NCBI GenBank assembly: GCA_019637695.1
Contig: JAHBVG010000001.1
Location: 62,001-126,000, forward strand
Reading direction: 5' to 3'
Source: Caldilineaceae bacterium
Lineage (GTDB): Bacteria; Chloroflexota; Anaerolineae; Caldilineales; Caldilineaceae
DNA length: 64,000 nt
A model generated the notes under the pieces. It ran no database searches. It saw nothing but the letters and a program-made list of their open reading frames with translations, and was not told the origin of the DNA. Positions 46,296 through 62,986 of this stretch are shown here, in pieces. The position numbers and the translations under genes are program-made. How positions within the stretch are numbered: position 1 is the first letter of the stretch; each line of letters starts with the position of its first letter.

Positions 46296-46718
46296 ATGAC
46301 CAAGAAAAACTTGCTAGTCCACAACATTCAGCGCCGGATCGATCTGGTGACGATGGGGAGCGTGGCGGACACGTTTTGGAGCCGGGGCAAGGGGCTGATC
46401 GGACGAAAAGAGTTGGACGTTGGCGATGGACTGCTCATCTCTCCGTGCAGCAGCATCCACTGCTGCTTTATGTCGATCCCCATTGACGTGATCTATTTGG
46501 ATCGCGACAACCGAGTCGTCGGCCTGGACAAAGAATTGCGCCCCTGGCGGATCGGTGGGATCTACCGGGGCGCAAAACGGGTGCTGGAATTGCCCGCAGG
46601 GACGATTGAAAAGAGCGGCACGGCGGTCGGGGATTGGCTAGAGATTGCTATCTTCCCTCGATATCAACCTCTCACCCGTTCGCGCGCTTCTTCGGAAGCA
46701 TCTTCTTCCACCCCGTAG
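46296..46718 (+). CDS. DUF192 family protein
   Basis: 140 residues. The DUF192 core is present: ADTFWSRGKGLIGRKELDVG, LLISPCSSIHCCFMSIPIDV, IYLDRDNRVVGLDKELRPWR and AKRVLELPAGTIEKSG. It lacks the signal peptide of many members, so it is probably cytoplasmic. The last 18 residues (QPLTRSRASSEASSSTP) are encoded by DNA that is also the 3' end of the tubulin-like gene on the other strand. Members are often next to pilus or secretion genes; no function is established. Confidence 0.88.
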   Translation: MTKKNLLVHNIQRRIDLVTMGSVADTFWSRGKGLIGRKELDVGDGLLISPCSSIHCCFMSIPIDVIYLDRDNRVVGLDKELRPWRIGGIYRGAKRVLELPAGTIEKSGTAVGDWLEIAIFPRYQPLTRSRASSEASSSTP

Positions 46719-49642
46719 AGCAGCCGGCGCTGGCGATCCACCAGGGCGAGTTGATCCAAGTTGGCGTCATTCAACATCATCATCTCCATGTAATAACGGC
46801 GGATGCTGCCCAGATCCTCCAGGGTAAGGCCGTGGACGGTGCGCACAAAGTTGAGGCGGAAGGGATCGTCCGTGGGCAACAGCGTCGAGCGGAACTCGCG
46901 CAGTGTGGTTTCGGAGAGGTCGCTCTCTGCGCTACCCCAGACCGCGGCAAAATCCACGGGGATGCCATGGGCGGCGAGCCGGTCGGCCACATCGTAGTTA
47001 GCGGCGGGCTTGGCGTGGCTCCACAGCGCTTCCAAATAACGGTGGATCAAGTTCTGTTTGCTGGTCCCCTGTGCGCCGTTTGTATGATGGGGGGCAGATC
47101 CATCGCGCCAGAGCAGATGTTCCAGATTGCAGATCTGCGCCAGTTCGCGCACCAATTCATCGCGTACGGCCTGAGCCGAGGCTGCGCTGAGATCCGAGAT
47201 CGTCGCCTGCACGCTTTCGCGCAGCAGATCCTGCATGGCTGCCGAGAGCGGACGCCGATCCTCTTCTTCGAGCAGCAATCCTTCGAGCTTGCGCCGCCAC
47301 GCCACCGAACGCCAGGATGAGCGCAACCGTTCCTCGCTGCGCCGTCCTTCCCGATCTTGTTGGGCGCGCAGATGGCTGCGGCAGAGTTCCCATAGCCGGT
47401 CGCTCACGCGCGGACCGTAGAGATGGGTGGCGGCATAGGCCACAGGCGTGGGGATACCATCATCCACCGTCCACTGGTTGAGCGACTCGTTCGTATCTTC
47501 GAGCGCGCGCGCCATCTCGCGCAACATCTGCGCCAGATGATCATAGGCGCGCAACAATCCCTGCTGTACCCGTTCCTGAAGTTGAGAGGTCAACTCAGCT
47601 TGGGCCAACGCCAACCGCTCGCGCCGCAGCCGCTGGATCCGCGTCAGTCGCCGCCGATAGCTCATGGCGCCGCCTACGTACGCGCCCAGGAAGATCCCCA
47701 ACAGCGTGCCGCCATCCACGATCAGATCAAAAGGACGGTTGAAGGCGATCAAATAGCCAATCGCCACGATCAGCACGGCCAGCACCAACAGCGAGGATCG
47801 CAGCAATGTCCGCCCCAGCGAGGGCTCCTTGAGCACATTACCCTCATAGTGAGCGCGCCACTGACGCAGGGCAAGTTGACGTTGCGCCGTAGCCAGGTTG
47901 CGCTGCCCCGGCGTAAGGATCGTCACCCGCTGGCGCGCCTCTTCCAACTCGGCCTGCCAGATCGCCAATCGACTCTGCGCCTGGCGCAAGCCTGTCGGCG
48001 ATTCAGCCAGCAGCTCGACGAAGGTGCGGCGCATGTAGAGCGCCGCGGCGGGCAGCACCCGTTTGTCATTTTTATTTTTGGGCAACCCGTTCGGGTGTAA
48101 AGCGCCCAATCCCCAGGCATAATCCAGAGCGGAAGCGCCAACCAGCCGGTCGAACTGTTGGGTCACCGTCTGCAAACGATCCTCAAAGGCGGCAAGCCAC
48201 CCGGCGGGGGAGAGAGGGCGCAACTCGGCGGCAATAGACGGCGGCAGCACAAAATTAGGATGGATCGCCAACTCGTCCAGCCCATGCGGCGTCACATTGA
48301 GGAAGAGATCGGGCATCTGCGCGATCAACTGGGCGATGACCTGATCCTGGGTGATGCCCAGATCGATCAAGGACGCCGCCTCAGCTTCTTGCGCGGGATT
48401 GCCCACGGGATCTTCTGCATTCAAGATCACTTCTCGGATCAGCCGTTTTTCCTCTTGTTGGTGAACGGCGCTGAAGATGTAATCCAGCGGCACATAGTCG
48501 CCCGCTGCGCCCATCAAACTGTAGGGGCGCTCGTGGGCGTTGCGCAGATCAATGCCCAACTGCTCTTCCACATGCTGATTGCCATCGGTGGTGATCATCG
48601 CCTCTAGGGCGTTGCCCACAAGGACGCTCAACTCGTAACTGTTGCGTACAAGCCCCTGGTTGCTCTTTTCCCGATCCACCAGGTAGATGCGATCCAACAG
48701 CGAGCGGCCCACCCAGCTTTCGAGCAGACCGCACTGACCGGGCAACGCCGGGAATCCTTCGCCGCGCACCAACGGTTCCACCGCAGATTGGGCCGCAGGG
48801 TGCAGATCGGTGAGCGCTTCCAACTCGGCGATGGACGCAAACGAGACGGCGTCCTCAATGGCGCGATTGCTGTCCCCAGCGTAGCTGCCCGTGGCGAAGA
48901 TGCCGACGATCTGCGAAATGTGGCGCTCGCCCAGATAGTTGAGCAGATGGACGAGTGTAGGCCAGATCAAAGCCGAAGCCAGCGGCTCAAAGAGCGGCGC
49001 TACCACGTAGAGCGTCGTCTGCACAAAGGGATCGCCCGGCGCCAGGTTGTCATGGCGAATGGGCGCGATCAAATGCGCATCCAAGAGGCGCGCCATCTCG
49101 ATCCCTTGGCTCAGCCCGGTCCGAAAGACATCGGCGCGGCGGGCTGGGATCGTATCCTCTTCGCCGCGCCCATTTTTATACTCAACAAAGGTGGGGATCT
49201 GTTGGTTCAACGGCTGCAAAACTGGCGCGGCAGCCTCCAAAAGTTGGCGGGCGCGACGCTCACTATCCACAGTCGCAAGAGGAGTTCCCGCTACGCCGAA
49301 CATACGATGCCCGCTTCCAATCATCCAGCCGTCGCCGCGCAGATCCTGTTGGTGGCGCGCGTCCAGCCGTTCCAACAGTCGCTCCAAATAGAAGGGAGGC
49401 AAGGGCGTCTGCGCGCGCAGCTTGCGTAAATGCAGCGGAACATGCCCATCTGGGGCGAGCGTCCCTTCCGCAAGGAGCGCGGCGAACTGCGTCACCTGCG
49501 TCAGATCCGGCCCCTGCACCTTGCGCGCCCGGCGTTGATCCTGAATCGATTGTATGCGCGGCTGCAAGTGGAGCATTGTCTGCAAGCCCCACCCGCCAAA
49601 ACAGAGTATCGCCGCCCGGCTTCGTGTCGCACCCGTAATCAT
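46664..49642 (-). CDS. Degenerate tubulin-like protein with two membrane helices
   Basis: 992 residues from the ATG at 49642. I align it by eye with the tubulin-like protein at 50238-52790: the first strand ILCFGGWGLQTMLHL matches VVGVGGMGTNTVRAV; TTLYVVAPLFEPLASALIWP matches QLVYVVGSLCGGTGSGMFMD; QIVGIFATGSYAGD matches RVVGIFYLPDVLEE; DRIYLVDREKSNQG matches DFIFLVGRTNREGR. The glycine-rich nucleotide loop GGTGSG is replaced by FEPLAS (about residues 219-224), so it should not bind GTP normally. Residues about 608-660 contain two membrane helices (SSLLVLAVLIVAIGYLIAF, GTLLGIFLGAYVGGAM), absent in the partner. The C-terminal part is alpha-helical. It likely anchors or caps filaments of the active partner (inference). 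Confidence 0.75.
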   Translation of the reverse strand: MITGATRSRAAILCFGGWGLQTMLHLQPRIQSIQDQRRARKVQGPDLTQVTQFAALLAEGTLAPDGHVPLHLRKLRAQTPLPPFYLERLLERLDARHQQDLRGDGWMIGSGHRMFGVAGTPLATVDSERRARQLLEAAAPVLQPLNQQIPTFVEYKNGRGEEDTIPARRADVFRTGLSQGIEMARLLDAHLIAPIRHDNLAPGDPFVQTTLYVVAPLFEPLASALIWPTLVHLLNYLGERHISQIVGIFATGSYAGDSNRAIEDAVSFASIAELEALTDLHPAAQSAVEPLVRGEGFPALPGQCGLLESWVGRSLLDRIYLVDREKSNQGLVRNSYELSVLVGNALEAMITTDGNQHVEEQLGIDLRNAHERPYSLMGAAGDYVPLDYIFSAVHQQEEKRLIREVILNAEDPVGNPAQEAEAASLIDLGITQDQVIAQLIAQMPDLFLNVTPHGLDELAIHPNFVLPPSIAAELRPLSPAGWLAAFEDRLQTVTQQFDRLVGASALDYAWGLGALHPNGLPKNKNDKRVLPAAALYMRRTFVELLAESPTGLRQAQSRLAIWQAELEEARQRVTILTPGQRNLATAQRQLALRQWRAHYEGNVLKEPSLGRTLLRSSLLVLAVLIVAIGYLIAFNRPFDLIVDGGTLLGIFLGAYVGGAMSYRRRLTRIQRLRRERLALAQAELTSQLQERVQQGLLRAYDHLAQMLREMARALEDTNESLNQWTVDDGIPTPVAYAATHLYGPRVSDRLWELCRSHLRAQQDREGRRSEERLRSSWRSVAWRRKLEGLLLEEEDRRPLSAAMQDLLRESVQATISDLSAASAQAVRDELVRELAQICNLEHLLWRDGSAPHHTNGAQGTSKQNLIHRYLEALWSHAKPAANYDVADRLAAHGIPVDFAAVWGSAESDLSETTLREFRSTLLPTDDPFRLNFVRTVHGLTLEDLGSIRRYYMEMMMLNDANLDQLALVDRQRRLLYGVEEDASEEARERVRG

Positions 49643-49648
49643 CAACGT

Positions 49649-49873
49649 TTATTCAACTTCAAATAGTATTCGTGGTAGCCCAGATTGCCGGATGATCGAA
49701 CGCAATGTCCCGGCTCGCACCTCTTTGTGATTTGGTACAGGGACGGTGATGGTCGATCCTTCAAGTTGACGTTGCATAATGATATGGCTGCCGCGTCGTC
49801 GTACTTCGGCAAATCCATGAGCCTCCAAAATTTTGCAGATCTCATCCGCAGAGAGTATCTGGAGCTTAGGCAA
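49649..49873 (-). CDS. hicA: HicA toxin (mRNA interferase)
   Basis: 74 residues from a TTG at 49873, with GGGAG six bases before. It begins MPKLQILSADEICKILEAHG, the common HicA start, and has the catalytic histidine in RRRGSHIIMQ, then TITVPVPNHKEVRAGTLRSI as the double-stranded RNA-binding-like fold, and IIRQSGLP. It overlaps hicB by eight bases and ends six bases before the start of the degenerate tubulin gene. Confidence 0.95.
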   Translation of the reverse strand: MPKLQILSADEICKILEAHGFAEVRRRGSHIIMQRQLEGSTITVPVPNHKEVRAGTLRSIIRQSGLPRILFEVE

Positions 49874-50093
49874 CTGGAACTCCCACTTGCGTGATAAAGA
49901 CTTCGGAAGCCAGCCGTTCACGGATCTCCGAAGGCGATGCCGTCTCGAAGAAGAGTTCAAGCGCTTCGATCAGGTTATGGCGCGCTTCCTCAACGGTTTC
50001 ACCCTGGCTGGCAATATCCAATTCGGGGCAAAGGGCAACGTACCAATCGTCTTCTTTTTCGATAATCGCCGTAAATTGCTGGATCTTTTTCAT
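49866..50093 (-). CDS. hicB: HicB antitoxin
   Basis: 75 residues from the ATG at 50093 with GAGGAT as SD; the open frame extends upstream into repeat DNA. The HicB fold is FTAIIEKEDDWYVALCPELD, ASQGETVEEARHNLIEALEL and FF. No DNA-binding domain follows, so autoregulation may need HicA. It precedes hicA. Confidence 0.94.
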   Translation of the reverse strand: MKKIQQFTAIIEKEDDWYVALCPELDIASQGETVEEARHNLIEALELFFETASPSEIRERLASEVFITQVGVPVA

Positions 50094-50237: not shown

Positions 50238-52790
50238 TTACCGTCGTCCAGATGAACTCCAGTTTTGGTAATTCGTGCCGGTGATGCGCGTATTGCTGAC
50301 ATGGGACGGCGGCATCTCCGGCGTGATCTCCGGCAGGTTGACCCAATGCGGGTTCAAGTGGAATTCCTCGGTAACGGGGAAATCCTGCATGTTTTCGTAT
50401 TGGGCGCGGAACTCGTCGAGCCGCTCCAACAAGGTGACCGGCAGCCCGTGGACGATCCAGACGGCGTCCATGCGGCTGACATCGCCGGTGGGGACCCACT
50501 TGATGTCCTCTTGCCCGACCATCGCAATCGCCATATCCTGATCGTCGGCGCGGCTGCCCGGCGTCGCCGCCAGACGAATGTGTTCCAGATCGGCGTCGTG
50601 GAAGCTGAAGCGATCCGAATCCCAGCGGATGTAGGGGTTGAGCCGATCCAGCCATTGGTGAATGCGGTTGTTGGGCAGCGGACGCGACGCGCTCACCTCT
50701 TCGCCGTGCTGCACACCAATAATGTGGCGGATGTCCACCAGTTTGCGCACACGGCCAATCAGCCCCGTATCCTCATAGACACTGGTGTTGAGGATCTCCA
50801 ACATCTGCTCGGCGCTGAGCGGATTGCTCTGCGTCAGCAGCCCATCAAGCAGCCGGCCCAGCAGCATCTGCCAATCCTCGGCGTGGACGGCCCCGGCGGC
50901 GCGTTTGTAGAAATGTTGCAGATAATCGCGGCCAATCGCGCCCGTCTCCAATTCATAATAAGTGCTGGTGGTCAGCGTGCCATCGGGGATGCGCGGGTCG
51001 ATGCGATCCGCCATGGCGCTGGCTTCATTATTGGCGCGCACCAGCGCCTGCGCGGCGTTGGTCAACTGGTTGCGGAAGACCTCGCGCATCCGTGTGGCGA
51101 AATGGCCCAGCTCGTCCACCATCATACGCTCGGTGGCGTCGCGGCGCTGATAAAGACGGGCGCGGGCCTTGCGCGTGGCAAGATCGCGCGCCCGTTCGCG
51201 CGCCTGACGTGGGCTGAAGGCGGAGAGCAGCAGATCGCCAAAGCCGCCCGCTAACTGATTCACCCGTTCCCCGGCGCCGCCTTCCTGCGCCAGCAAGGAT
51301 CGCCAGCGCGCCCGATCCTCTTCGCCCACAGGCTGGTTGTCGAGCAGGAAGAGACGCTGGCGGTGCAACGATTCCATAGGCGCGGCGGCAGGGTTGTTGG
51401 GTCCGATCAACTCGGAAAGGGCAATCGCCCCGCGCAGACCGGTCTCGACAATGGCCTGGCGGAAGGCGCGTTCGGCCAGTTCGCGGAAGGAGAGCCACGC
51501 CCCGCGCCCCTCCTCGATCTCGGCGATGATCTCCTCCAGGCGGTCGTTGTTGAGGGCGAGATAGCGCGAACGCATTTCGGCCAACAAGGTCTGCCAGATC
51601 GTCATTACACGCTGGCGTTCGCTGGTGGAGATAGGCTGGCGCGGATCTTGCAAACTCGGCCCGGCGGCAAAGCGGCGGATCACATCCGTGAGGAAGGCGC
51701 GCTGCCAGAATTGGGTGAGCAATTCATCGGGGGCCACAATCGCCGATGCCGCGAAGCTGCTGTAAACGAGAAAATGGCCCGATTTTGTGCGCCGTTCGCC
51801 CACCACTTCACCGGCGGGCAGGTTAGGATTGGCCATACGCTCGCGTACAACGTTCACCTCCAACCCCAGGATCTCGCTGCTGAGGTGGCTGATGGCGGTG
51901 AGTTGGATCAGGTGCGCGGCCAGGTTTTCCGCGTCGGATTTGCGCGCCAGGCTGCGTCCTTCGCGGTTGGTGCGCCCGACCAAAAAGATGAAATCGAAGG
52001 GCGCGTAAGGCGTATCGGGCAGGGCGCGCTGCTCGCTGGGGTATAGCTCCTGGAAGGTCTGCGTCTCTTGGAAGTAGTTGAGTTCCTTGAGCGCGGCGTA
52101 GGCGTTGGCCTTAATGCGTCGGCGCTGTAGATCGCTGGTGATCTCCTCTTCGAGTACGTCGGGCAGGTAGAAGATCCCCACGACGCGGGCGTTGCTGCGC
52201 ACCAATGCGCGCACACGATGCGCCACATCCATAAACATCCCCGACCCGGTGCCGCCGCAGAGGCTGCCCACCACATAGACCAGTTGATAGTTCCCCATGA
52301 CAGGGAAGCCGCGGTTCTGCGCCATCTCCATATCGCGGATCTTATCCAGCGAGGCGTATTTGGTCTCCAACAGCCGCTTAAAGGTGACATAGTTACGGAA
52401 GAACGAGAGCCGTCCAATCGGGCGAAGCTGTTTGGCCCCGTTGTGGATATAGCCCAACGGGATCGACGGATAGTTCCACCAGCGCGCGATCTCCGGGTGG
52501 TTGTCCAAATTGTCCACGAGGCGGGTGGCGTCGAACTTGCCCATGTAGGCGAACTCGTCGGCATAGAGCGGCTCCTGATCGAGCCGGTTGACCAGCGGTT
52601 CCGTGTCCAGCGCCAGCAGTTGGACCATACCGGGCAGTGTGTCGCCGCCCCAGACTTTACGCAGACGGCGTTTGACGGCGCGCACGGTGTTCGTGCCCAT
52701 CCCGCCCACCCCCACCACCAGGGTAGGGTAGATGGTCGCCTTTTCGCCGATCAGTGGTGTCCCGTTCAAATATGTACCGTTTTCGTTCAT
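50238..52790 (-). CDS. Tubulin-like (FtsZ-superfamily, Tubulin_2 type) protein
   Basis: 850 residues from an ATG with GGAAAG upstream. The first strand and loop are TLVVGVGGMGTNTVRAVKRR; an acidic stretch LLALDTEPLVNRLDQEP follows; the tubulin signature loop is YVVGSLCGGTGSGMFMDVAH (GGTGSG at 179-184), corresponding to GGGTGTG of FtsZ and tubulin. Further parts are ARVVGIFYLPDVLEEEI and FDFIFLVGRTNREGRSLARK. After about residue 400 a long helical C-terminal part has no parallel in FtsZ. It is of the type described by Makarova and Koonin (2010) as FtsZ-like proteins linked with VWA proteins in membrane-remodelling loci. VWA, hicBA and a degenerate paralogue flank it. Confidence 0.9.
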   Translation of the reverse strand: MNENGTYLNGTPLIGEKATIYPTLVVGVGGMGTNTVRAVKRRLRKVWGGDTLPGMVQLLALDTEPLVNRLDQEPLYADEFAYMGKFDATRLVDNLDNHPEIARWWNYPSIPLGYIHNGAKQLRPIGRLSFFRNYVTFKRLLETKYASLDKIRDMEMAQNRGFPVMGNYQLVYVVGSLCGGTGSGMFMDVAHRVRALVRSNARVVGIFYLPDVLEEEITSDLQRRRIKANAYAALKELNYFQETQTFQELYPSEQRALPDTPYAPFDFIFLVGRTNREGRSLARKSDAENLAAHLIQLTAISHLSSEILGLEVNVVRERMANPNLPAGEVVGERRTKSGHFLVYSSFAASAIVAPDELLTQFWQRAFLTDVIRRFAAGPSLQDPRQPISTSERQRVMTIWQTLLAEMRSRYLALNNDRLEEIIAEIEEGRGAWLSFRELAERAFRQAIVETGLRGAIALSELIGPNNPAAAPMESLHRQRLFLLDNQPVGEEDRARWRSLLAQEGGAGERVNQLAGGFGDLLLSAFSPRQARERARDLATRKARARLYQRRDATERMMVDELGHFATRMREVFRNQLTNAAQALVRANNEASAMADRIDPRIPDGTLTTSTYYELETGAIGRDYLQHFYKRAAGAVHAEDWQMLLGRLLDGLLTQSNPLSAEQMLEILNTSVYEDTGLIGRVRKLVDIRHIIGVQHGEEVSASRPLPNNRIHQWLDRLNPYIRWDSDRFSFHDADLEHIRLAATPGSRADDQDMAIAMVGQEDIKWVPTGDVSRMDAVWIVHGLPVTLLERLDEFRAQYENMQDFPVTEEFHLNPHWVNLPEITPEMPPSHVSNTRITGTNYQNWSSSGRR

Positions 52791-52992
52791 AAAACTTTCC
52801 CAATCAACCCTGTGGGTAATATTCGTAAGCTGCTTATTTCACCCTAAAGCGGGAGAATCGCCAAATTCAAGCGGGCGCAGAAAAGAAGGCAAAAGGCAAA
52901 GGGTAAAAGGCAAAAATGGTGGCAAGTTGCAGGTGACAATCGTCTACGCACTACGCACCAATCTCTAATTACCAATATCTAATACCTTCCCC
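52791..52992. repeat. Family F words between the VWA and tubulin-like genes
   Basis: AAAAGGCAAAGGGTAAAAGG and GCAAGTTGCAGGTGACAATC, then CTACGCACTACGCACCAATC and TACCAATATCTAATACC. Words related to those at 46066-46280. No gene; the tubulin-like gene's promoter presumably lies here. Confidence 0.5.
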
Positions 52993-55900
52993 TCACCACC
53001 GCGATGACCACGCGTCATCCTGCGCGGGGCTGTTGCGGTTGGTGGATGGGGTGGCGTTGGCGGTTGTGTTGGCCGGCGAGCCGCCCCAATCGATCTCGCC
53101 CCACTGGCTGCCCCACGAAGATCCGCCGTCGGCCTGGCGCGCAGATGCTGTGTCAAACGAGGGCGTGACAAAGGCGGATTCTGCCTCGGCGCTGAAGGTA
53201 GGCGTGGGCAGCGTCACCACCGGTTCCTCTTCGTCGTCGCTGTAGCCGCTGTTGCGCACCCGCGCCAAAATGATCAGCAGAACCAGCAGCGTCAGCGGAC
53301 CCGAACAGAGCAGCAGCGGTAAACTGTAAATCGGCAGCAGCCACCACGCCACATAGCGCTGGAAAGGCGTCGGGCTGCGGAAGCCGATGTCCACCGTGCG
53401 GGTTTCATTGGGCAGTCCCTCGATCCCCAAAACGAGATCGCCAATATAAAAGGTCCCCCGCAACGGGTCGAGGGGGATCGAACGATTGGCGACCAGTGTA
53501 ATCGGTACTTCGTAAAAACCGTTGGCGTTGGGTTCGCCTGTCACCTCAACGGGCAACATCTCGACAAAGTTCTGGTTGAGATCCGCTGCGCCCGCGTCGG
53601 CTTCCCCCGATGCGCTGAGATCGAGCATTTTGAGTGTAAAGGGCGTGGCGCCGTCAAAGCGGATGAGCAACGTCTGCGTGGATCGTTCCCCGGCCCGGTT
53701 GAGATCGCCAAAATTGAGCGCGCCGGCCACTGTCCACGCCAGGTTACGGATGCGCAGCCGGTAATCGATCTGGGATGGGAAGATGTCGAAATCCTCGTTT
53801 GGCCCGCTCAACCGGATCTGCCCATTGCACGCACCCGGTTCCACCGAGCCACTGCTGCGCAATCGGACGGGCAGCGCGTAGCCGTCCCCTTGCGGCTGGA
53901 GTTCCCCCGAAGTCACCGTCAACCCTGCGCAGGAACTCTCGGCCAGCGCTGCGCTGACGCGGAAGGACCTGCCCCGTTCAAAGGTAAGCGGCAGCAGCGT
54001 TTCCTGATCCACACGGAAATTGGGGGAAGTTTCAAAGATGGTTTCGCCGAAATCGACGATCTGGCTGCTCATACGCGCGGCGGATCGCTCTACGATCAAC
54101 GTCACCGGCAGCACCGGCGCCGGGCGGATCTTCACATCCATGGGGCGACCGGCAGGGTTCATAACAGTCAGCACAATTTCGCCCGTATACTGGCCTGGGC
54201 GCAATCGATCCAGCCCGTCCACGCGGAAGGTAGCAGGCCGCGCCTCGTTTTCATCCACCTCTTCAGAAAAGCGCAGCGTCGCCTCTGTGGCCGCTTCGCC
54301 CGTGTCGGCGCGGGTCAGGGTCAGCGTACCGTTGATCGTACCAATGGCCTGGGTCGTCCCCGCCAGGATCGAAACCGCCCAGCCATCGGCGGGCATCTGG
54401 CCTAGATCGAGGCTATCGGGCAGTCCGCGCAAATAGACCGCCGGTTCCACATTCAGGGCGGTCTCGATCCAATCACCAAAATGGAGATCGCCAGCCACGG
54501 CGCTGAGCAGAAAGCGGATGCTGTAATTGCGTCCGTCGGCAGGTGAGAAACCTTCATTGGCGCAGATGCGATCCACACAGCTCATGATGGCTGAGTAGAC
54601 AGGTTGCCCGGCGTCGTCCACTGTGATGTCCGAAACGTAGACGGTCGCCTGGAGTCCGCCAATGGACACGCCAGGGCCAAAGCCAACTTCCAGTCGGATG
54701 CGTCCATCCTCCAACAACCCTGGATTGGCGGTCGAAGGGGAGAAGACTTCGGCGCGCGGCAGATCGGCGCGGGATGCTAATGTGAAGCTTCTGCGCAACT
54801 GGAAGGGCGTCCTATCCTCGCCGAGTTGGAGTACGACATTGGTTGTGCCGGATGGCAGGGGCATGGCTGCCAGGGCGCTGTTGCCGCCAAACGTTGGGAT
54901 CGCCGTCTGCCCATCGAGCAAAATCGGCTCTCCGGCAGCAGGACCGGCGCCGCGTGCCACGATCATGGGGGCGCTGCCCGCCGGATAATACCGGACCGAG
55001 GCTGGGCTGTTGGGTACACTGGGCGGCGGAAAGATCAATTCAGGGTAGCTGTCGGCCTGCACCACGGCAAACGCGCTGGGATCGGCAGTCTCGACGATCC
55101 AGGCGCCGGCAGGTACGTCCCCACTGACGGCGTTGAGATCAATATTATCGTCTTCGAGCAGGCTTTGGGTGACCACAGGGCTATCATCGCGGCGCACACT
55201 GCTGATAGATGCCCGCGGGCTGACAAAGGCAAGCTGTCCTACATCCTGTACGGTGCGGGTGTTGAACGAGAGATATCCACTGGTGTTGCGCGCTGTTACC
55301 ACCGAACGATCTGGCTTCATCGAAGCGAAGATCTCGCTGAAGACGCGCAGCAGATCGGGGGCCGTTTGCGCCTCGCGCACATCCGCGCCGAACTGTCCGC
55401 TCAAAAAGTCACCTGAGCAGCCATCGGTTGGATTACAAAGCACAACGGGGAAGACGAGGACGCCATCGGCGCGCAGTTGTGCGAGATACTGGGCGAAGCG
55501 TCCTTCTTGACCGGCGGCGTTGGCGGGAGAAGTGGGTTCGCCATCGGTGAGCAGCAACACGTATTGGCTGCGATTGGGTTGCCGATTGTTTGCGAGGATG
55601 CGCATGGCGGCTTCTAAACCGAGATCGAGCCGGGTATAGCCGCGTCTCAAATAATCAGTGGGCGGCTGTAGCGACGAGGCGAGGATGCGACGGCGCTCGG
55701 CGCTGCCCGCTTCTTGCAACTCGCCCAGCACGCCCACCCCCTCGACGCCACTATCAAAGCGGATCACGGCGAGGCGGTCCGCGCTATCGGCCAGATGGAC
55801 CAACAGACGCGCCGCCGAGTAGCGCAGATCTTCAGGATCGCTTGGTTCATTGACACTCGGCGCGCGGCAGGGCGGCCCGAAGGGTGTCCCTTGTTGGGGC

Positions 55901-56073
55901 CAGGGCCAGCAGGTGACCATGCTCCCGGAGTCGTCGAGCACCACCACTACGTCGATAGATTTCGTCGCTGGGCCGGTCGGTGGTTCGATCTGCAAAGAGG
56001 GCGCCGCTGTCGAGGCGTAGGCCATCATCACCACCAGCACAATCGCCAGAAGTCCGGCAGCTGCGTTTTTCAA
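52993..56073 (-). CDS. VWA-domain membrane protein
   Basis: About 1026 residues. I prefer the TTG at 56073 (KNAAAGLLAIVLVVMMAYAS follows as signal peptide) because GAGAGG lies seven bases before it; an ATG six bases upstream sits too close to that SD. The VWA domain begins DVVVVLDDSGSM (MIDAS motif DxSxS) and spans about residues 40-260, with VLLLTDGEPTSPANAA. A long beta-sandwich extracytoplasmic region follows. Close to the end is one membrane helix (YSLPLLLCSGPLTLLVLLII, about 945-965) and a roughly 65-residue acidic cytoplasmic tail (YSDDEEEPVVTLPTPTFSAE). It lies directly upstream of the tubulin-like gene, so its tail may contact the cytoplasmic filament (inference). Confidence 0.88.
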   Translation of the reverse strand: MKNAAAGLLAIVLVVMMAYASTAAPSLQIEPPTGPATKSIDVVVVLDDSGSMVTCWPWPQQGTPFGPPCRAPSVNEPSDPEDLRYSAARLLVHLADSADRLAVIRFDSGVEGVGVLGELQEAGSAERRRILASSLQPPTDYLRRGYTRLDLGLEAAMRILANNRQPNRSQYVLLLTDGEPTSPANAAGQEGRFAQYLAQLRADGVLVFPVVLCNPTDGCSGDFLSGQFGADVREAQTAPDLLRVFSEIFASMKPDRSVVTARNTSGYLSFNTRTVQDVGQLAFVSPRASISSVRRDDSPVVTQSLLEDDNIDLNAVSGDVPAGAWIVETADPSAFAVVQADSYPELIFPPPSVPNSPASVRYYPAGSAPMIVARGAGPAAGEPILLDGQTAIPTFGGNSALAAMPLPSGTTNVVLQLGEDRTPFQLRRSFTLASRADLPRAEVFSPSTANPGLLEDGRIRLEVGFGPGVSIGGLQATVYVSDITVDDAGQPVYSAIMSCVDRICANEGFSPADGRNYSIRFLLSAVAGDLHFGDWIETALNVEPAVYLRGLPDSLDLGQMPADGWAVSILAGTTQAIGTINGTLTLTRADTGEAATEATLRFSEEVDENEARPATFRVDGLDRLRPGQYTGEIVLTVMNPAGRPMDVKIRPAPVLPVTLIVERSAARMSSQIVDFGETIFETSPNFRVDQETLLPLTFERGRSFRVSAALAESSCAGLTVTSGELQPQGDGYALPVRLRSSGSVEPGACNGQIRLSGPNEDFDIFPSQIDYRLRIRNLAWTVAGALNFGDLNRAGERSTQTLLIRFDGATPFTLKMLDLSASGEADAGAADLNQNFVEMLPVEVTGEPNANGFYEVPITLVANRSIPLDPLRGTFYIGDLVLGIEGLPNETRTVDIGFRSPTPFQRYVAWWLLPIYSLPLLLCSGPLTLLVLLIILARVRNSGYSDDEEEPVVTLPTPTFSAEAESAFVTPSFDTASARQADGGSSWGSQWGEIDWGGSPANTTANATPSTNRNSPAQDDAWSSRW

Positions 56074-56275
56074 AACCATTCCTCTCAACGATCCAATCTA
56101 CACAGTCTATACTCGACAAAACGTCATTAGGGCGCGAACGTAGTGCATTGTAACACAACGGAAAAGTGTTTCAAACTATCCATGTGATTATGTCAAGATG
56201 ACGGAGGTAGACCGCAGAGACCGCCACTGGTAGAGGATAACGCATGAGAAAAGGAGGGGGTTCCGAAGAAAGAGG

Positions 56276-56356: not shown

Positions 56357-57763
56357 CTACTCTCTCGCTTCAGCGAGCAATTCGGTGAGGGCGGCGCTGA
56401 ATTGATCGGCAGGCAGCGCGCCAGGGATGAGACGTCCCTGATCCCCGTAGAGGACGACGAAGGTTGGCGTGCCGCGAACAAAGGGTGAACCATCGGTTAA
56501 ATCGCTTAAGATCGCCTGGTATGTTTCTTGGGCTTCCATACAGGTTTCAAACTGGGCCATATCCAGGCCAAGATCCTCGGCCAGCGAGGTCAGGCCGGCG
56601 TCAACGGTAGCGCTGCTGCCCCATTCCTCTGTGCGCTCAAAGAGAAGATGGTGCATCTCCCAGAACTGCCCCTGATATCCTGCACATTGGGCAGCGCCGG
56701 CGGCAGCCACAGCCTGGGGATGGCTCTGTTCCACAGGGAAGTGTTTGAAAACCCACATCACATCGCCAGGATCGATAAACTGTTCATCCAACACCGGCTG
56801 CGTATTGAGAGCATGTTGACGGCAGAATGGACATTGGAAATCGCTAAACTCGACCACCACCAGCGGCGCATCAGGGTTGCCCCGCCAGAAGTCACCGGCC
56901 ACGGTGAAGCCAGGGTTGTCGGGATCAGGCGATAACCCCTCTTCTTGCGCCCAATAAGGGATCTGCGGTTCGCCCTGTTGTTGCTGTTGGGCCGCAGCAG
57001 GATCTACCGGCGCGCCGCCGGCAAGCATTGTGTCAATATAGTCAGAAAAGATGTTGTAGGGCTGCGCGCCGACCAACCTAAACGCTTCTCCGCTCTCCTC
57101 GTTGACAAAGACGAAGCTGGGTGTGCCGCTAAAGCCCAGCGACTGCGCCTCGGCGACGCTCTCACGCACAGCGGCTTCCTTCACGTCGGCTGTTTCGGCC
57201 AGGCAGGCTGCATAGAGATCAGGATCTGCGCCAGCTTCCTCAGCCAGCCGAGCAAAGACAGAGTCGGGATTGGCAGAGCGCGACCACTCTTGTTGGGCGC
57301 GGAAGAGCAGCCGGTGCATCTGCCAATAGTGGACGATCCCCTGCTCGGCGACACAATTGGCCGCCACCGCTGCTGGGATCGCATTGGGGTGCAGCGTCTC
57401 TAGTGGAAAGTCGCGGAAGACGAACCTTACGTCGCCTTCGGCTACATAATTATCTTTTAGGGCAGGTTCGGTTTGGATCACATGGCGGGCACAGAAAGGA
57501 CATTCGTAATCGCTGAATTCGTAGACGGTAATGGGCGCATCAGGGTTGCCGCGATAGGGGAACCCTTCCGCAGTAAAGCCGACGGGCATACCCTCATAGA
57601 TGGCGGCGGGCGCGGGTTCGGCGGCAGCAACGGGTGTGCTATCTTCCTCGACGACAGGCGCCACAGGCACAGGCAAGGTCGGCATCGTACAAGCTGAAAT
57701 CACGAGCAGCGCCATCAGCACGACGACAAGCCCAATCGTCCTTCCCAATCGATGAATGTGCAT
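56357..57763 (-). CDS. Lipoprotein with two DsbA/thioredoxin-4-type domains
   Basis: 468 residues. The N-terminus is a lipoprotein signal with lipobox VISAC (lipidated cysteine 25). Two DsbA-like domains follow: the first near residues 60-245 with YEFSDYECPFCARHVIQTEP, the second near 285-460 with VEFSDFQCPFCRQHALNTQP. Both have the CPFC redox motif, and both have helical insertions and a cis-proline region (GFSGTPSFVFV and RGTPTFVVLYG). It should form or reshuffle disulfides in exported proteins. Two complete domains in one chain is unusual; most members have one. A glutamine-rich linker separates them. Confidence 0.92.
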   Translation of the reverse strand: MHIHRLGRTIGLVVVLMALLVISACTMPTLPVPVAPVVEEDSTPVAAAEPAPAAIYEGMPVGFTAEGFPYRGNPDAPITVYEFSDYECPFCARHVIQTEPALKDNYVAEGDVRFVFRDFPLETLHPNAIPAAVAANCVAEQGIVHYWQMHRLLFRAQQEWSRSANPDSVFARLAEEAGADPDLYAACLAETADVKEAAVRESVAEAQSLGFSGTPSFVFVNEESGEAFRLVGAQPYNIFSDYIDTMLAGGAPVDPAAAQQQQQGEPQIPYWAQEEGLSPDPDNPGFTVAGDFWRGNPDAPLVVVEFSDFQCPFCRQHALNTQPVLDEQFIDPGDVMWVFKHFPVEQSHPQAVAAAGAAQCAGYQGQFWEMHHLLFERTEEWGSSATVDAGLTSLAEDLGLDMAQFETCMEAQETYQAILSDLTDGSPFVRGTPTFVVLYGDQGRLIPGALPADQFSAALTELLAEARE

Positions 57764-59614: not shown

Positions 59615-62600
59615 ATGGCAGTCAGTAACCCACAGATTGATGATCGTTCTTTGCCTGCGCCAGAAGCCTGGTCAGGCGATGATGAAATTGACCTGCGCCA
59701 ATATATCTGGGTGCTGGTGGCGTGGTGGCGCGAGATCCTGACCCTTTCTATTTTGACGGCTGTCCTCGCTGCCGGCGCAGTGATCGGTCTGCGCTTCCTT
59801 CAAGATCCTGTGTACGAGTCCTCAGCGACGGTGGCGATTGCTCGCACTACCAGTAATATCACCTTTGACGAGCGCTTTCAAACCAATCTCTCAGAACAGA
59901 ATATGACATCGGCGGCGCGCGCTGACTTGTTGGTAGGTACACGACGAGCGGCTCTGGTAGGGTTGGTCTACAACGGGGCAGTGGCAGAGAGCGTGGCCGA
60001 ATCCCTGGCTCCGCTGTTGAGCGAGGAGCAGCGCAACCCATCCCGTCTGCTACGCCGGATCGACGCCAAAATCGTAAAACGGGAAGGTGTCTCCGGCGAG
60101 AGCGATCTGATTCAGATTACCGCCAGAGCGGATAGCCCTGAGCTGGCGGCGGCCATTGCCAACAACTGGGCTTACGCCTATGTGACGCAGGTGAACCAGC
60201 TCTATGGTCAACTACCCGATGAATTGTTGGCTTCGGTCCAGAATGAACTGAGCGAGGCGCAGATCGCTTTTGACGACTCGCAAAGTCAACTCGAAGCGTT
60301 CATTTCCCAGAACGATGTTGCGCGTCTAGATCGGCTGATTGCCGAGAAAAAAGAGATCATCAACAGCTTGCAGGTAGGCAAACAGACAGCCATCAATACC
60401 ATCGTCACTGAGGAATTGCAGGCCCGTCGCCAGATCATCTCCGCCTATATCAACGCCCTCGCCAGTAATCGACTTTTGGCATTTAACAAAGAGCAAGAGG
60501 CCAAGCGTACGCTGATCTCGACTCTGATCGATACTGAGTTCAATAACCGGCTGTCAGCCTTCCAAAAGGATCAGGCCGCCCGCCGTCAACTCTTTGACCA
60601 GGCTGTTCAAATCGAGATCGACAATCTATTGCTGGCGCTCTCGAAGGATCAGACCGCCCGTCGCCAACTCTTCGGCCAATACACCGACGCTCAACTTGAG
60701 AACCAACTGCTGGCTTTGTCTAGAGATCAGGCCGCCCGTCGCCAACTCTTCGACCAGGCCGTTCAGGCCGAGATTGACAATCTGTTGCTGGCGCTCTCGA
60801 AGGATCAGACTGCCCGTCGTCAACTCTTCGGCCAATACACCGACGCTCAACTTGAGAATCAGTCGTTAGCGTTGACAATGGATCAGACCGCCCGCCGCCA
60901 ACTCTTCGACCAGGCCGTGCAGATCGAGATTGACAATCTGTTGCTGGCGCTCTCGAAAGATCAGACTGCCCGCCGACAACTTTTCGGCCAATATACCGAC
61001 GCCCAACTCGAAAACCAACTGCTGGCGCTCTCTAAGGACCAGACTGCCCGCCGTCAACTCTTTACTCAATACGCCGATGCTCAGATCAATAACCAGACGG
61101 TGGCTTTTGCCAGGGATCAAGAAATTCGGCATAGTATCTTCAACCAGTATGTTGATTCACTGGTGAGTAATCGACTGACCGCTGCGCAGAAGGAACAGGA
61201 GGGACGCGCCCGGCTCTTTGCCCAATATGTCAATACCGAGATCGAGAACCGTCTGAAAGCCCTGGCGCAAGAACAGGATGCCAAGGGGCGCATTTTCGAC
61301 GCCTATGCCAATGCCGATACGAGCGCCAAACTGGCCATTTTCAACGAACAGGTCAACGCCAGACTGCAAACGCTGACCCAGACCTACGACACCAAACTCA
61401 AGTTGGAACGATTGATGGCCGACGCCCGTGCCCTGCGGGCCCAGGCAGCCACTGGCGGCGACGCCAGCGCCGCCACCAATAGTCTGGCGCTGTTGCTGCT
61501 TAAATCTGAAGTCTACGGCACAGCCGTGGGCGCGCCTGCCGAACTGCAACTCTTATTGGGCGATCTAAATTCACTCAACATTGGTGCCGACGCACAAGTG
61601 GCCGATCTGGATGCCTTACTTAAGGTGCTAGATGAGCGAATTGAGGAATTGACCAACAGCATCGATACCCAGTCGCAGGTAGTCTTCAACAATGAAGCCT
61701 ACAACCTGTTGAGCGCAGAACGGCCTGAGGACGATCCTCTCTATGCCGCCTTACAGGAAAAGTATCTGGATCTCTTCGCTGTAGGCGATTTAGCCCAGGC
61801 CGCCGACAGTGTGGACAACACAACACTCTCCCAGGCGATTCTAGCCAAATACGAAGAACTCTTTTCAGTGAGCGCCCTGGCGACTGCTGGTGATAGTCTA
61901 TGGCAGGAAAGCGAACTGCTAGACACCGTGCTTACCAAGTACCAGGAGCTCTTTGACGTTGGCGTGCTAGCCAGTTCGTCTGCAGTCTATTCAGATACAA
62001 CGCCTCTCTCTCAGTCTATCCTCGCCCGCTACGAGGAACTCTTCAGCGTAGGGGCATTGGCTGATGTCAGTGCAGGCATACTTGACGAGAGCGAACTCTC
62101 CCAGGCCATCCTCACCCGCTACGAGGAACTCTTTGGCGTGGGCACGTTGGCTTCTGCTTCCAGTGTGATTTCAGACACAACGCCATTGGCAGCGGCGATC
62201 CAGGCTCGCTACGAGGAACTCTTTGGGGTGGGTGCATTGGCGGAAGCAGGCGTGGGTATGTACGATGACAGTGAACTCTCTCAGGCCATCCTCGCCCGAT
62301 ATGAGGAACTCTTTGGCGTGGGCGCATTGCCCACAATTTCCAGTGTGATTTCAGACACAACACCCCTCGCCGAGGCGATTCAGGCGCGCTATGAGGAACT
62401 CTTCGGCCTGAGCGCCCTGGCCATGGCCTCAACCGTGGTATCAGAAACCACACCGCTGGCGCAGATAATTCGTGACCAATACCCCGACCTCTTTACCGTC
62501 GGCGAGCTCTCGGCATTGACTGAAGAGATTACAGAAGCCAATGGTCTCTCCCTTTTAGGCGCTGAACGAGCACAGGAGCTCTTGCAACTGCAAGGGCTAG

Positions 62601-62986
62601 AGGATCTTCCCGCCTACACTGCCGCCGCCGCGCCGCTCACCAAGGCCATTGACTCCCTTGAAAGCGAAATTCAGATTTTACAGGCGCAACGAGAGAAAGA
62701 AGTGACCCGCCGCGACCAACTGACCCGCGCTCGCGATCTCACCCTCAAAACACTGACCACGCTGGACAACAAAAATGCCGAACTCAAACTGGCAGGGACC
62801 GGCGCCAACAGCGAAGTGCGCTTTGCCACCCCCGCCCTGCCCCCACTTGAGCCAATGGAAAGGCTGAGTTTGGTGATGGCCACCGCCCTGGGCGGTATTG
62901 TTGGTCTAATGTTAGCGGTCTTCATTGCCTTCTTTGCTAACTTTATGGGGATACAGCCCTTGTTGCGTAGAGAGCAGGTGGCGTAG
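59615..62986 (+). CDS. Wzz/PCP-like membrane protein with two tandem repeat arrays
   Basis: 1123 residues. The N-terminal DLRQYIWVLVAWWREILTLS and membrane helix (about 33-57), the Wzz domain (VYESSATVAIARTTSNITFD; ITARADSPELAAAIANNWAY) and a second membrane helix near the C-terminus (SLVMATALGGIVGLMLAVFI) preceded by proline-rich PALPPLEPMERL are those of polysaccharide co-polymerases. Between them are 12 repeats of 26 residues (about 268-579) and 9 repeats of 30 residues (about 708-977). No tyrosine-kinase domain. Family members are usually 300-500 residues; the arrays make this one two to three times longer. It should sit in the membrane with a long extracytoplasmic helical stalk controlling glycan length (inference). 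Confidence 0.87.
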   Translation: MAVSNPQIDDRSLPAPEAWSGDDEIDLRQYIWVLVAWWREILTLSILTAVLAAGAVIGLRFLQDPVYESSATVAIARTTSNITFDERFQTNLSEQNMTSAARADLLVGTRRAALVGLVYNGAVAESVAESLAPLLSEEQRNPSRLLRRIDAKIVKREGVSGESDLIQITARADSPELAAAIANNWAYAYVTQVNQLYGQLPDELLASVQNELSEAQIAFDDSQSQLEAFISQNDVARLDRLIAEKKEIINSLQVGKQTAINTIVTEELQARRQIISAYINALASNRLLAFNKEQEAKRTLISTLIDTEFNNRLSAFQKDQAARRQLFDQAVQIEIDNLLLALSKDQTARRQLFGQYTDAQLENQLLALSRDQAARRQLFDQAVQAEIDNLLLALSKDQTARRQLFGQYTDAQLENQSLALTMDQTARRQLFDQAVQIEIDNLLLALSKDQTARRQLFGQYTDAQLENQLLALSKDQTARRQLFTQYADAQINNQTVAFARDQEIRHSIFNQYVDSLVSNRLTAAQKEQEGRARLFAQYVNTEIENRLKALAQEQDAKGRIFDAYANADTSAKLAIFNEQVNARLQTLTQTYDTKLKLERLMADARALRAQAATGGDASAATNSLALLLLKSEVYGTAVGAPAELQLLLGDLNSLNIGADAQVADLDALLKVLDERIEELTNSIDTQSQVVFNNEAYNLLSAERPEDDPLYAALQEKYLDLFAVGDLAQAADSVDNTTLSQAILAKYEELFSVSALATAGDSLWQESELLDTVLTKYQELFDVGVLASSSAVYSDTTPLSQSILARYEELFSVGALADVSAGILDESELSQAILTRYEELFGVGTLASASSVISDTTPLAAAIQARYEELFGVGALAEAGVGMYDDSELSQAILARYEELFGVGALPTISSVISDTTPLAEAIQARYEELFGLSALAMASTVVSETTPLAQIIRDQYPDLFTVGELSALTEEITEANGLSLLGAERAQELLQLQGLEDLPAYTAAAAPLTKAIDSLESEIQILQAQREKEVTRRDQLTRARDLTLKTLTTLDNKNAELKLAGTGANSEVRFATPALPPLEPMERLSLVMATALGGIVGLMLAVFIAFFANFMGIQPLLRREQVA
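60416..61351 (+). repeat. 12 tandem 78-bp repeats (26-residue units)
   Basis: Units of the type QTARRQLFGQYTDAQLENQL plus LALSKD. The middle copies alternate between FDQAVQIEIDNLL and FGQYTDAQLENQL, so the higher-order unit is 156 bp. Central copies are nearly identical, outer ones decayed, as expected from recent internal expansion. Confidence 0.92.
61736..62545 (+). repeat. 9 tandem 90-bp repeats (30-residue units)
   Basis: Units of the type LSQAILARYEELFSVGALAD plus ten variable residues. Ends alternate between D-E-S-E and S-D-T-T-P types in the middle copies, so the higher-order unit is 180 bp. Unrelated in sequence to the 26-residue array. Confidence 0.92.

Follow-up and report, generated by a model that had tools for sequence, protein, structure and literature searches.

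We found that the VWA gene of this locus, which encodes a predicted single-pass membrane protein with an extracytoplasmic MIDAS domain, is best explained as encoding the transmembrane partner within an FtsZl1/Tubulin_2 locus, a reading to which we give a probability of about 0.5 as a whole. The stretch of DNA analysed, 64,000 nucleotides of a Caldilineaceae genome, is referred to below as the window. As judged from sequence comparisons, the VWA protein and the tubulin-like proteins encoded beside it very probably work in the same system. This functional link, already proposed in the first-pass annotation of the locus, is well supported by the co-occurrence of the genes, their conserved order and strand, gene overlaps in relatives and a natural fusion. 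The features discussed are collected in Table 1.

Table 1. Positions of the VWA gene, its encoded domains and motifs, and neighbouring features in the window.
Feature	Position	Strand	Remarks
VWA single-pass membrane protein gene	52993..56079	-	start at ATG 56079 or TTG 56073
Signal peptide	56002..56079	-	hydrophobic core, Ala-rich, ends ...STAA before P; poorly conserved (mean identity 0.38)
VWA domain, residues 37-252	55318..55965	-	Pfam, AlphaFold, orthologue conservation
MIDAS motif D-D-S-G-S, residues 47-51	55921..55935	-	T147 and D177 elsewhere in the VWA domain
Tandem beta-sandwich (Ig-like) ectodomain, residues 253-905	53359..55317	-	AlphaFold, Foldseek
C-terminal membrane segment, residues 914-938	53260..53334	-	hydrophobic; followed by positively charged ARVR
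Cytoplasmic tail, acidic and predicted disordered, residues 942-1026	52996..53250	-	85-86 residues; AlphaFold, tail comparison
Trp cluster W987..W991G...W996 in tail	53086..53115	-	tail comparison
C-terminal tail motif [DNS][PA]W.[ST].W	52996..53019	-	DDAWSSRW in the window; tail comparison
Tubulin_2/FtsZl1 protein	50238..52790	-	intact GGTGSG loop; Tubulin_2 E 9.4e-60
Divergent second tubulin-like protein, 993 aa	46664..49645	-	profile similarity to Tubulin_2
Intergenic space with dispersed repeat	52791..52992	.	consensus scan: no promoter- or terminator-like site
HicA-type toxin gene	49649-49960		inserted between the Tubulin_2 and second tubulin-like genes; Pfam
Lipoprotein-like gene, two DsbA/thioredoxin_4 domains (CPFC)	56357..57763	-	conserved upstream neighbour

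Architecture and topology of the VWA protein

Positions 52993-56073 (minus strand) form an uninterrupted open reading frame and belong to a strongly conserved gene. An in-frame ATG occurs at 56079, two codons 5′ of the TTG at 56073. The spacing from a GAGAGG sequence favours the TTG as the start, and the N-terminus of the protein is possibly ambiguous by these two residues. Pfam analysis of residues ~41-210 returned VWA_2 (E 1.1e-5, 26.4 bits) and VWA (E 9.5e-5, 23.1 bits), both marginally below the curated cut-offs in a single-sequence scan. The MIDAS residues D47-x-S49-x-S51, T147 and D177 were intact, with 96-100% conservation among 23 Caldilineaceae orthologues. Having the DxSxS, T and D residues together with a Rossmann-like fold, the protein has the defining features of the VWA domain superfamily.

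The AlphaFold model consisted of a folded VWA domain followed by a long series of beta-strands at residues ~256-900, a helix at residues 926-938 that was modelled with low confidence, and predicted disorder from residue 937 to the end (pLDDT 25-39). Eight conserved cysteines, arranged as four close pairs, were found in the VWA domain and beta ectodomain, and the sole further cysteine lies in the membrane segment. Residues 906-941, comprising the pre-membrane and membrane regions, were the best conserved part of the protein (identity 0.75). Using the VWA protein as query, a sequence search of the PDB found no relative. A Foldseek search of the model against the PDB was set aside, having returned only generic beta-domain chains, integrin included, with TM-scores of 0.1-0.2.

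Topology was assigned from hydropathy and sequence. The hydropathy and positive-inside pattern agree with a type I single-pass arrangement, and from the respective extracytoplasmic and cytoplasmic signatures it is well inferred that the VWA and beta domains lie outside and the tail inside. The first-pass annotation had described this protein as a signal peptide, a MIDAS domain, one helix and an acidic tail of about 65 residues; the layout held, and the tail proved to be 85-86 residues long. A similar layout, with an N-terminal hydrophobic segment, a VWA domain, a C-terminal membrane helix and a cytoplasmic part, recurs in the majority of VWA partners identified in the phylum.

The eight ectodomain cysteines, taken together with neighbouring genes of the DsbA type, suggest an oxidising extracytoplasmic location. 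The double-DsbA gene upstream of the VWA gene was found at the same place in seven of the eight relatives with enough upstream sequence (L001-L003 and L007-L010; not L005). Several relatives carry an extra single-domain DsbA-type copy directly before the VWA gene; none occurs there in the window. Further upstream, positions 59615-62986 of the window encode a Wzz-like protein (just below the Pfam cut-off) with many near-identical internal repeats of the TARRQLFDQAVQIEIDNLLLALSKDQ type, which sit between its membrane segments.

Two Trp motifs in a variable, predicted cytoplasmic tail

We compared the cytoplasmic tails of 24 Caldilineaceae proteins, which ranged from 76 to 179 residues and of which only identical proteins had been de-duplicated. 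The Trp cluster was present in 23 of the 24 tails (mean 4.0 and maximum 10 after shuffling) and the [DNS][PA]W end in all 24 (mean 0.8, maximum 5), shuffles that ignore the relatedness of the sequences. The better argument for the motifs is their contrast with the diverged linkers of the same tails: mean majority identity was 0.48 and 0.33 in the linkers and 0.69 in the C-terminal island. The retention of two Trp motifs in a tail that is otherwise strongly variable suggests a putative cytoplasmic docking site and, since the motifs are present in every readable tail, one that would bind something conserved.

A genome scan for DPWxSxW followed by a stop codon recovered the VWA gene and, apart from it, isolated matches here and there, with no second conserved carrier. 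We had also considered a motif shared with the tails of the tubulin (Y..W) and of the second protein (AWR), and dropped it as it is kept in some genera only. Other families have a different cytoplasmic part: that of L060 contains an FHA domain (E 1.5e-7), and those of the L064 and L065 VWA partners are FHA-like, by eye or by a marginal score. The Trp tail is therefore specific to the Caldilineaceae lineage, the part being FHA-like or other outside it.

The tubulin-like pair

The VWA gene was confirmed to lie directly upstream of a tubulin-like gene on the same strand; the product of the latter is a Tubulin_2 protein (Table 1), and the relative position of the two genes is conserved. Among 24 orthologues, the GGTGSG loop of the Tubulin_2 protein was invariant except for an S/A exchange at one position.

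The second protein of the pair (46664-49645) had no Pfam match. Its family shows a conserved EPL.S at the position of the GGTGSG loop of the GTPase, and a two-helix membrane hairpin occurs mid-protein at residues ~613-660, as seen in the sequence and as helices in the AlphaFold model. When scored with a phylum-wide Tubulin_2 HMM, all 24 members of this family obtained 21-39 bits, against a best score of 4.9 bits among reversed and 20-fold shuffled control sequences. Moreover, orthologues in genus g181 match PF13809 directly (E 9e-6 to 7e-4), as does the second gene of L060, a locus elsewhere in the Chloroflexota (1e-16). The HMM scores and their shuffled controls identify the second gene as a Tubulin_2 relative, and the earlier description of a tubulin-like pair was right. 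An hhalign comparison of the two families gave a weak match (E 0.0023, probability 13%), was useless on trimmed family alignments and was discarded.

With its GTP loop replaced, the second protein appears to lack the usual mode of GTP binding, and from its sequence it is a candidate pseudo-GTPase partner of the first. An AlphaFold model built from a 10-sequence alignment had a mean pLDDT of 54 in the N-terminal half, and because of this low confidence it was excluded as evidence of fold.

Spacer and inserted genes

Between the VWA and Tubulin_2 genes, the first-pass annotation had placed a repeat-filled space of 164 bp (52829-52992). The repeat is real, and the VWA stop (52993) and the tubulin ATG (52790) are 202 bp apart; a length of 164 bp is obtained only with an upstream tubulin start. 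The dispersed repeat (52821-52998) is built from two segments that occur separately (query positions ~60-114 and 102-138), and the genome contains another 40 partial matches to it. In Caldilineaceae without inserted genes, the gap between the VWA and tubulin genes was 10-265 bp. In genus g185 and in L009 it extends over 0.5-2.6 kb and often contains toxin-antitoxin (TA)-like genes, which makes strict co-transcription an unsafe assumption at these loci. The TA-like genes in the spacers of relatives were of AbiEii-type, DUF4258/MqsA-like, DUF4160/DUF2442 and DUF433/DUF5615 kinds. At the next junction, which holds the HicA-type gene in the window, the Tubulin_2 and second tubulin-like genes of L001 abut. 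The spaces of the cluster repeatedly hold TA-like genes (L002, L003, L005, L007, L009 and the HicA gene of the window), in the manner of an insertion hot spot.

Co-inheritance and gene order across genomes

In the ten loci retrieved first, the order was VWA, Tubulin_2, second protein wherever the contig reached, and this three-gene order was found in every Caldilineaceae locus that was readable. The VWA gene preceded the tubulin gene on the same strand in all 27 Caldilineaceae entries compared, that is, 26 loci and the window, with several duplicates among them as some GTDB loci (L001-L010) are genomes also entered under a G handle. Of 46 Caldilineales genomes, 38 contained Tubulin_2, 39 the portion of the VWA protein outside its VWA domain and 37 the second protein; six genomes (G301-G304, G324 and G345) lacked all three. 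The two genomes with the VWA gene only, G336 and G325, carry it close to where a short contig ends, and the G325 genome is 74% complete; G323 has a divergent Tubulin_2 only. Except at contig edges and in one divergent genome, each of the 46 genomes has either all three genes or none of them. A lack of co-occurrence across genomes, which the first-pass annotation had named as grounds for rejecting the link, was thus not observed.

In the Chloroflexota, Tubulin_2 was found in 36 of 301 genomes. A VWA-type membrane gene adjoins it in 25 of the 29 readable long-form loci elsewhere in the phylum, lying upstream in 21 and downstream with overlap in four. The reversed order, with Tubulin_2 first and an overlapping VWA gene downstream, was that of L046, L048, L049 and L050, all from one Chloroflexota family, and several VWA/Tubulin_2 gene pairs in the phylum overlap by 4-82 bp. 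These neighbours were called by the MIDAS motif pattern, with L062 added by Pfam; Pfam confirmed a VWA family in nine of the 11 neighbours run, and L066 and L069 were assigned by the MIDAS motif alone. No VWA gene was detected beside Tubulin_2 in L072, L047, L052 and L053. Tubulin_2 cross-matches of 350-410 aa (L051 and L056-L058), similar in size to ordinary FtsZ, were left out.

In G260 (L068:6299-16840), a single frame of 3513 aa begins its domain series with Tubulin_2 and a zinc ribbon, continues with VWA (E 3.3e-25) and beta-propeller repeats, and closes it with a second Tubulin_2. A separate VWA membrane gene precedes this frame. The genome to which the window belongs, a MAG that is 88.8% complete with 5.3% contamination, has 12 VWA_2 matches in 6.8 Mb, a density at which chance adjacency of a VWA and a tubulin gene is expected at well under 1% per locus.

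Proposed function and alternative explanations

In the reading that we prefer, the three products would form one membrane-bound complex. The two Trp motifs of the tail would dock onto a partner in the cytoplasm, for which the tubulin-like proteins are the likeliest candidates, and metal-dependent binding outside would be coupled, mechanically or allosterically, to a GTPase-driven assembly on the cytoplasmic side of the membrane. Direct docking of the tail to a tubulin-like protein is a speculative step that falls somewhat short of an even chance. That the signal truly runs from outside to inside, rather than the ectodomain being positioned from inside to outside, is likewise speculative and a good deal more doubtful. 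Unlikely, though worth stating, is a full transmembrane link from adhesion to cytoskeleton, in which the Trp tail of a MIDAS receptor docks a membrane-bound pair made up of a GTPase-competent and a GTP-loop-less protein and surface binding controls a putative polymer.

The strongest rival explanation retains the complex and joins it through the membrane helices. Because the second tubulin-like protein possesses a membrane hairpin of its own, the VWA tail need not be the membrane link; the VWA protein may instead be anchored through its membrane helices or ectodomain, for example against that hairpin, with the Trp tail binding some other cytoplasmic factor. The high conservation of residues 906-941 and the different tails of other families fit such a joint, whereas the occurrence of the tail motifs in every readable tail argues for a conserved binding target, and we regard this arrangement as doubtful, if less so than the other rivals to the preferred reading. 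A transport, secretion or surface-assembly machine, in which the VWA protein would bind substrate on the outside and the tubulin-like proteins would act as drivers in the cytoplasm, is in keeping with the DsbA-type and other secreted neighbours and with a reviewer's comment on the 2010 paper on these genes, where this alternative was put forward (PMC2875224). However, in the loci read, the cluster contains no conserved channel or translocase gene, and this explanation seems quite improbable. Least probable is mere neighbourhood, that is, a surface adhesin encoded beside tubulin-like genes with no joint work: the repeat-filled space of 164-202 bp in the window and the TA-like genes inserted in relatives would suit it, but the shared inheritance of the genes, their fixed order, their overlaps in other families and the fusion all speak against it.

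Comparison with known systems

The clustering of FtsZl1 and vWA genes in operons was described in 2010 by Makarova and Koonin, who predicted a role in membrane remodelling and noted that many of the vWA partners have signal peptides, membrane segments and an intact MIDAS (PMC2875224). A 2023 study stated that the FtsZ-like sequences carry PF13809, i.e., Tubulin_2 (PMC9871819). The locus in the window is therefore a variant of a known system, and the pairing itself is not new. As in that system, a Tubulin_2 protein with a long C-terminal extension adjoins a vWA protein with an intact MIDAS, a signal peptide and a membrane segment, and the host retains a separate FtsZ (FtsZ_C E 4.5e-36, contig C96). 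Unlike in that system, the next gene encodes a second tubulin-like protein whose GTP loop is replaced, and Trp motifs in the VWA tail take the place of the FHA-like part of some other families. Of the kinase, GTPase and OmpA-type genes that are frequent but not universal in FtsZl1 operons, none was found among the nearby window proteins scanned with Pfam.

Integrin beta and I-domain receptors resemble the VWA protein in having an extracellular MIDAS domain, a beta stalk, one helix and a short tail, and serve here as a working analogy only. Neither sequence nor whole-chain structure pointed to integrin homology: the protein is without a sequence relative in the PDB, Foldseek TM-scores were 0.14-0.15, and there is no alpha subunit or known tail adaptor. 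The BtubA/BtubB and alpha/beta tubulin pairs are similarly encoded by two adjacent tubulin-like genes; in the window, however, one member has a membrane hairpin and no GGTGSG loop, and both members belong to the divergent Tubulin_2 group rather than to tubulin proper.

In the open-licence literature searched, we found no experiment on any FtsZl1-vWA member, and no mention of the Trp-motif tail, the loop-less second protein or the fusion, part of which the supplementary files of the 2010 paper may hold. Since its description in 2010, the FtsZl1-vWA system has stood as a prediction. The pair of tail motifs, the single-pass topology, the three-gene set and the fusion now turn a vague idea of membrane remodelling into small, concrete experiments.
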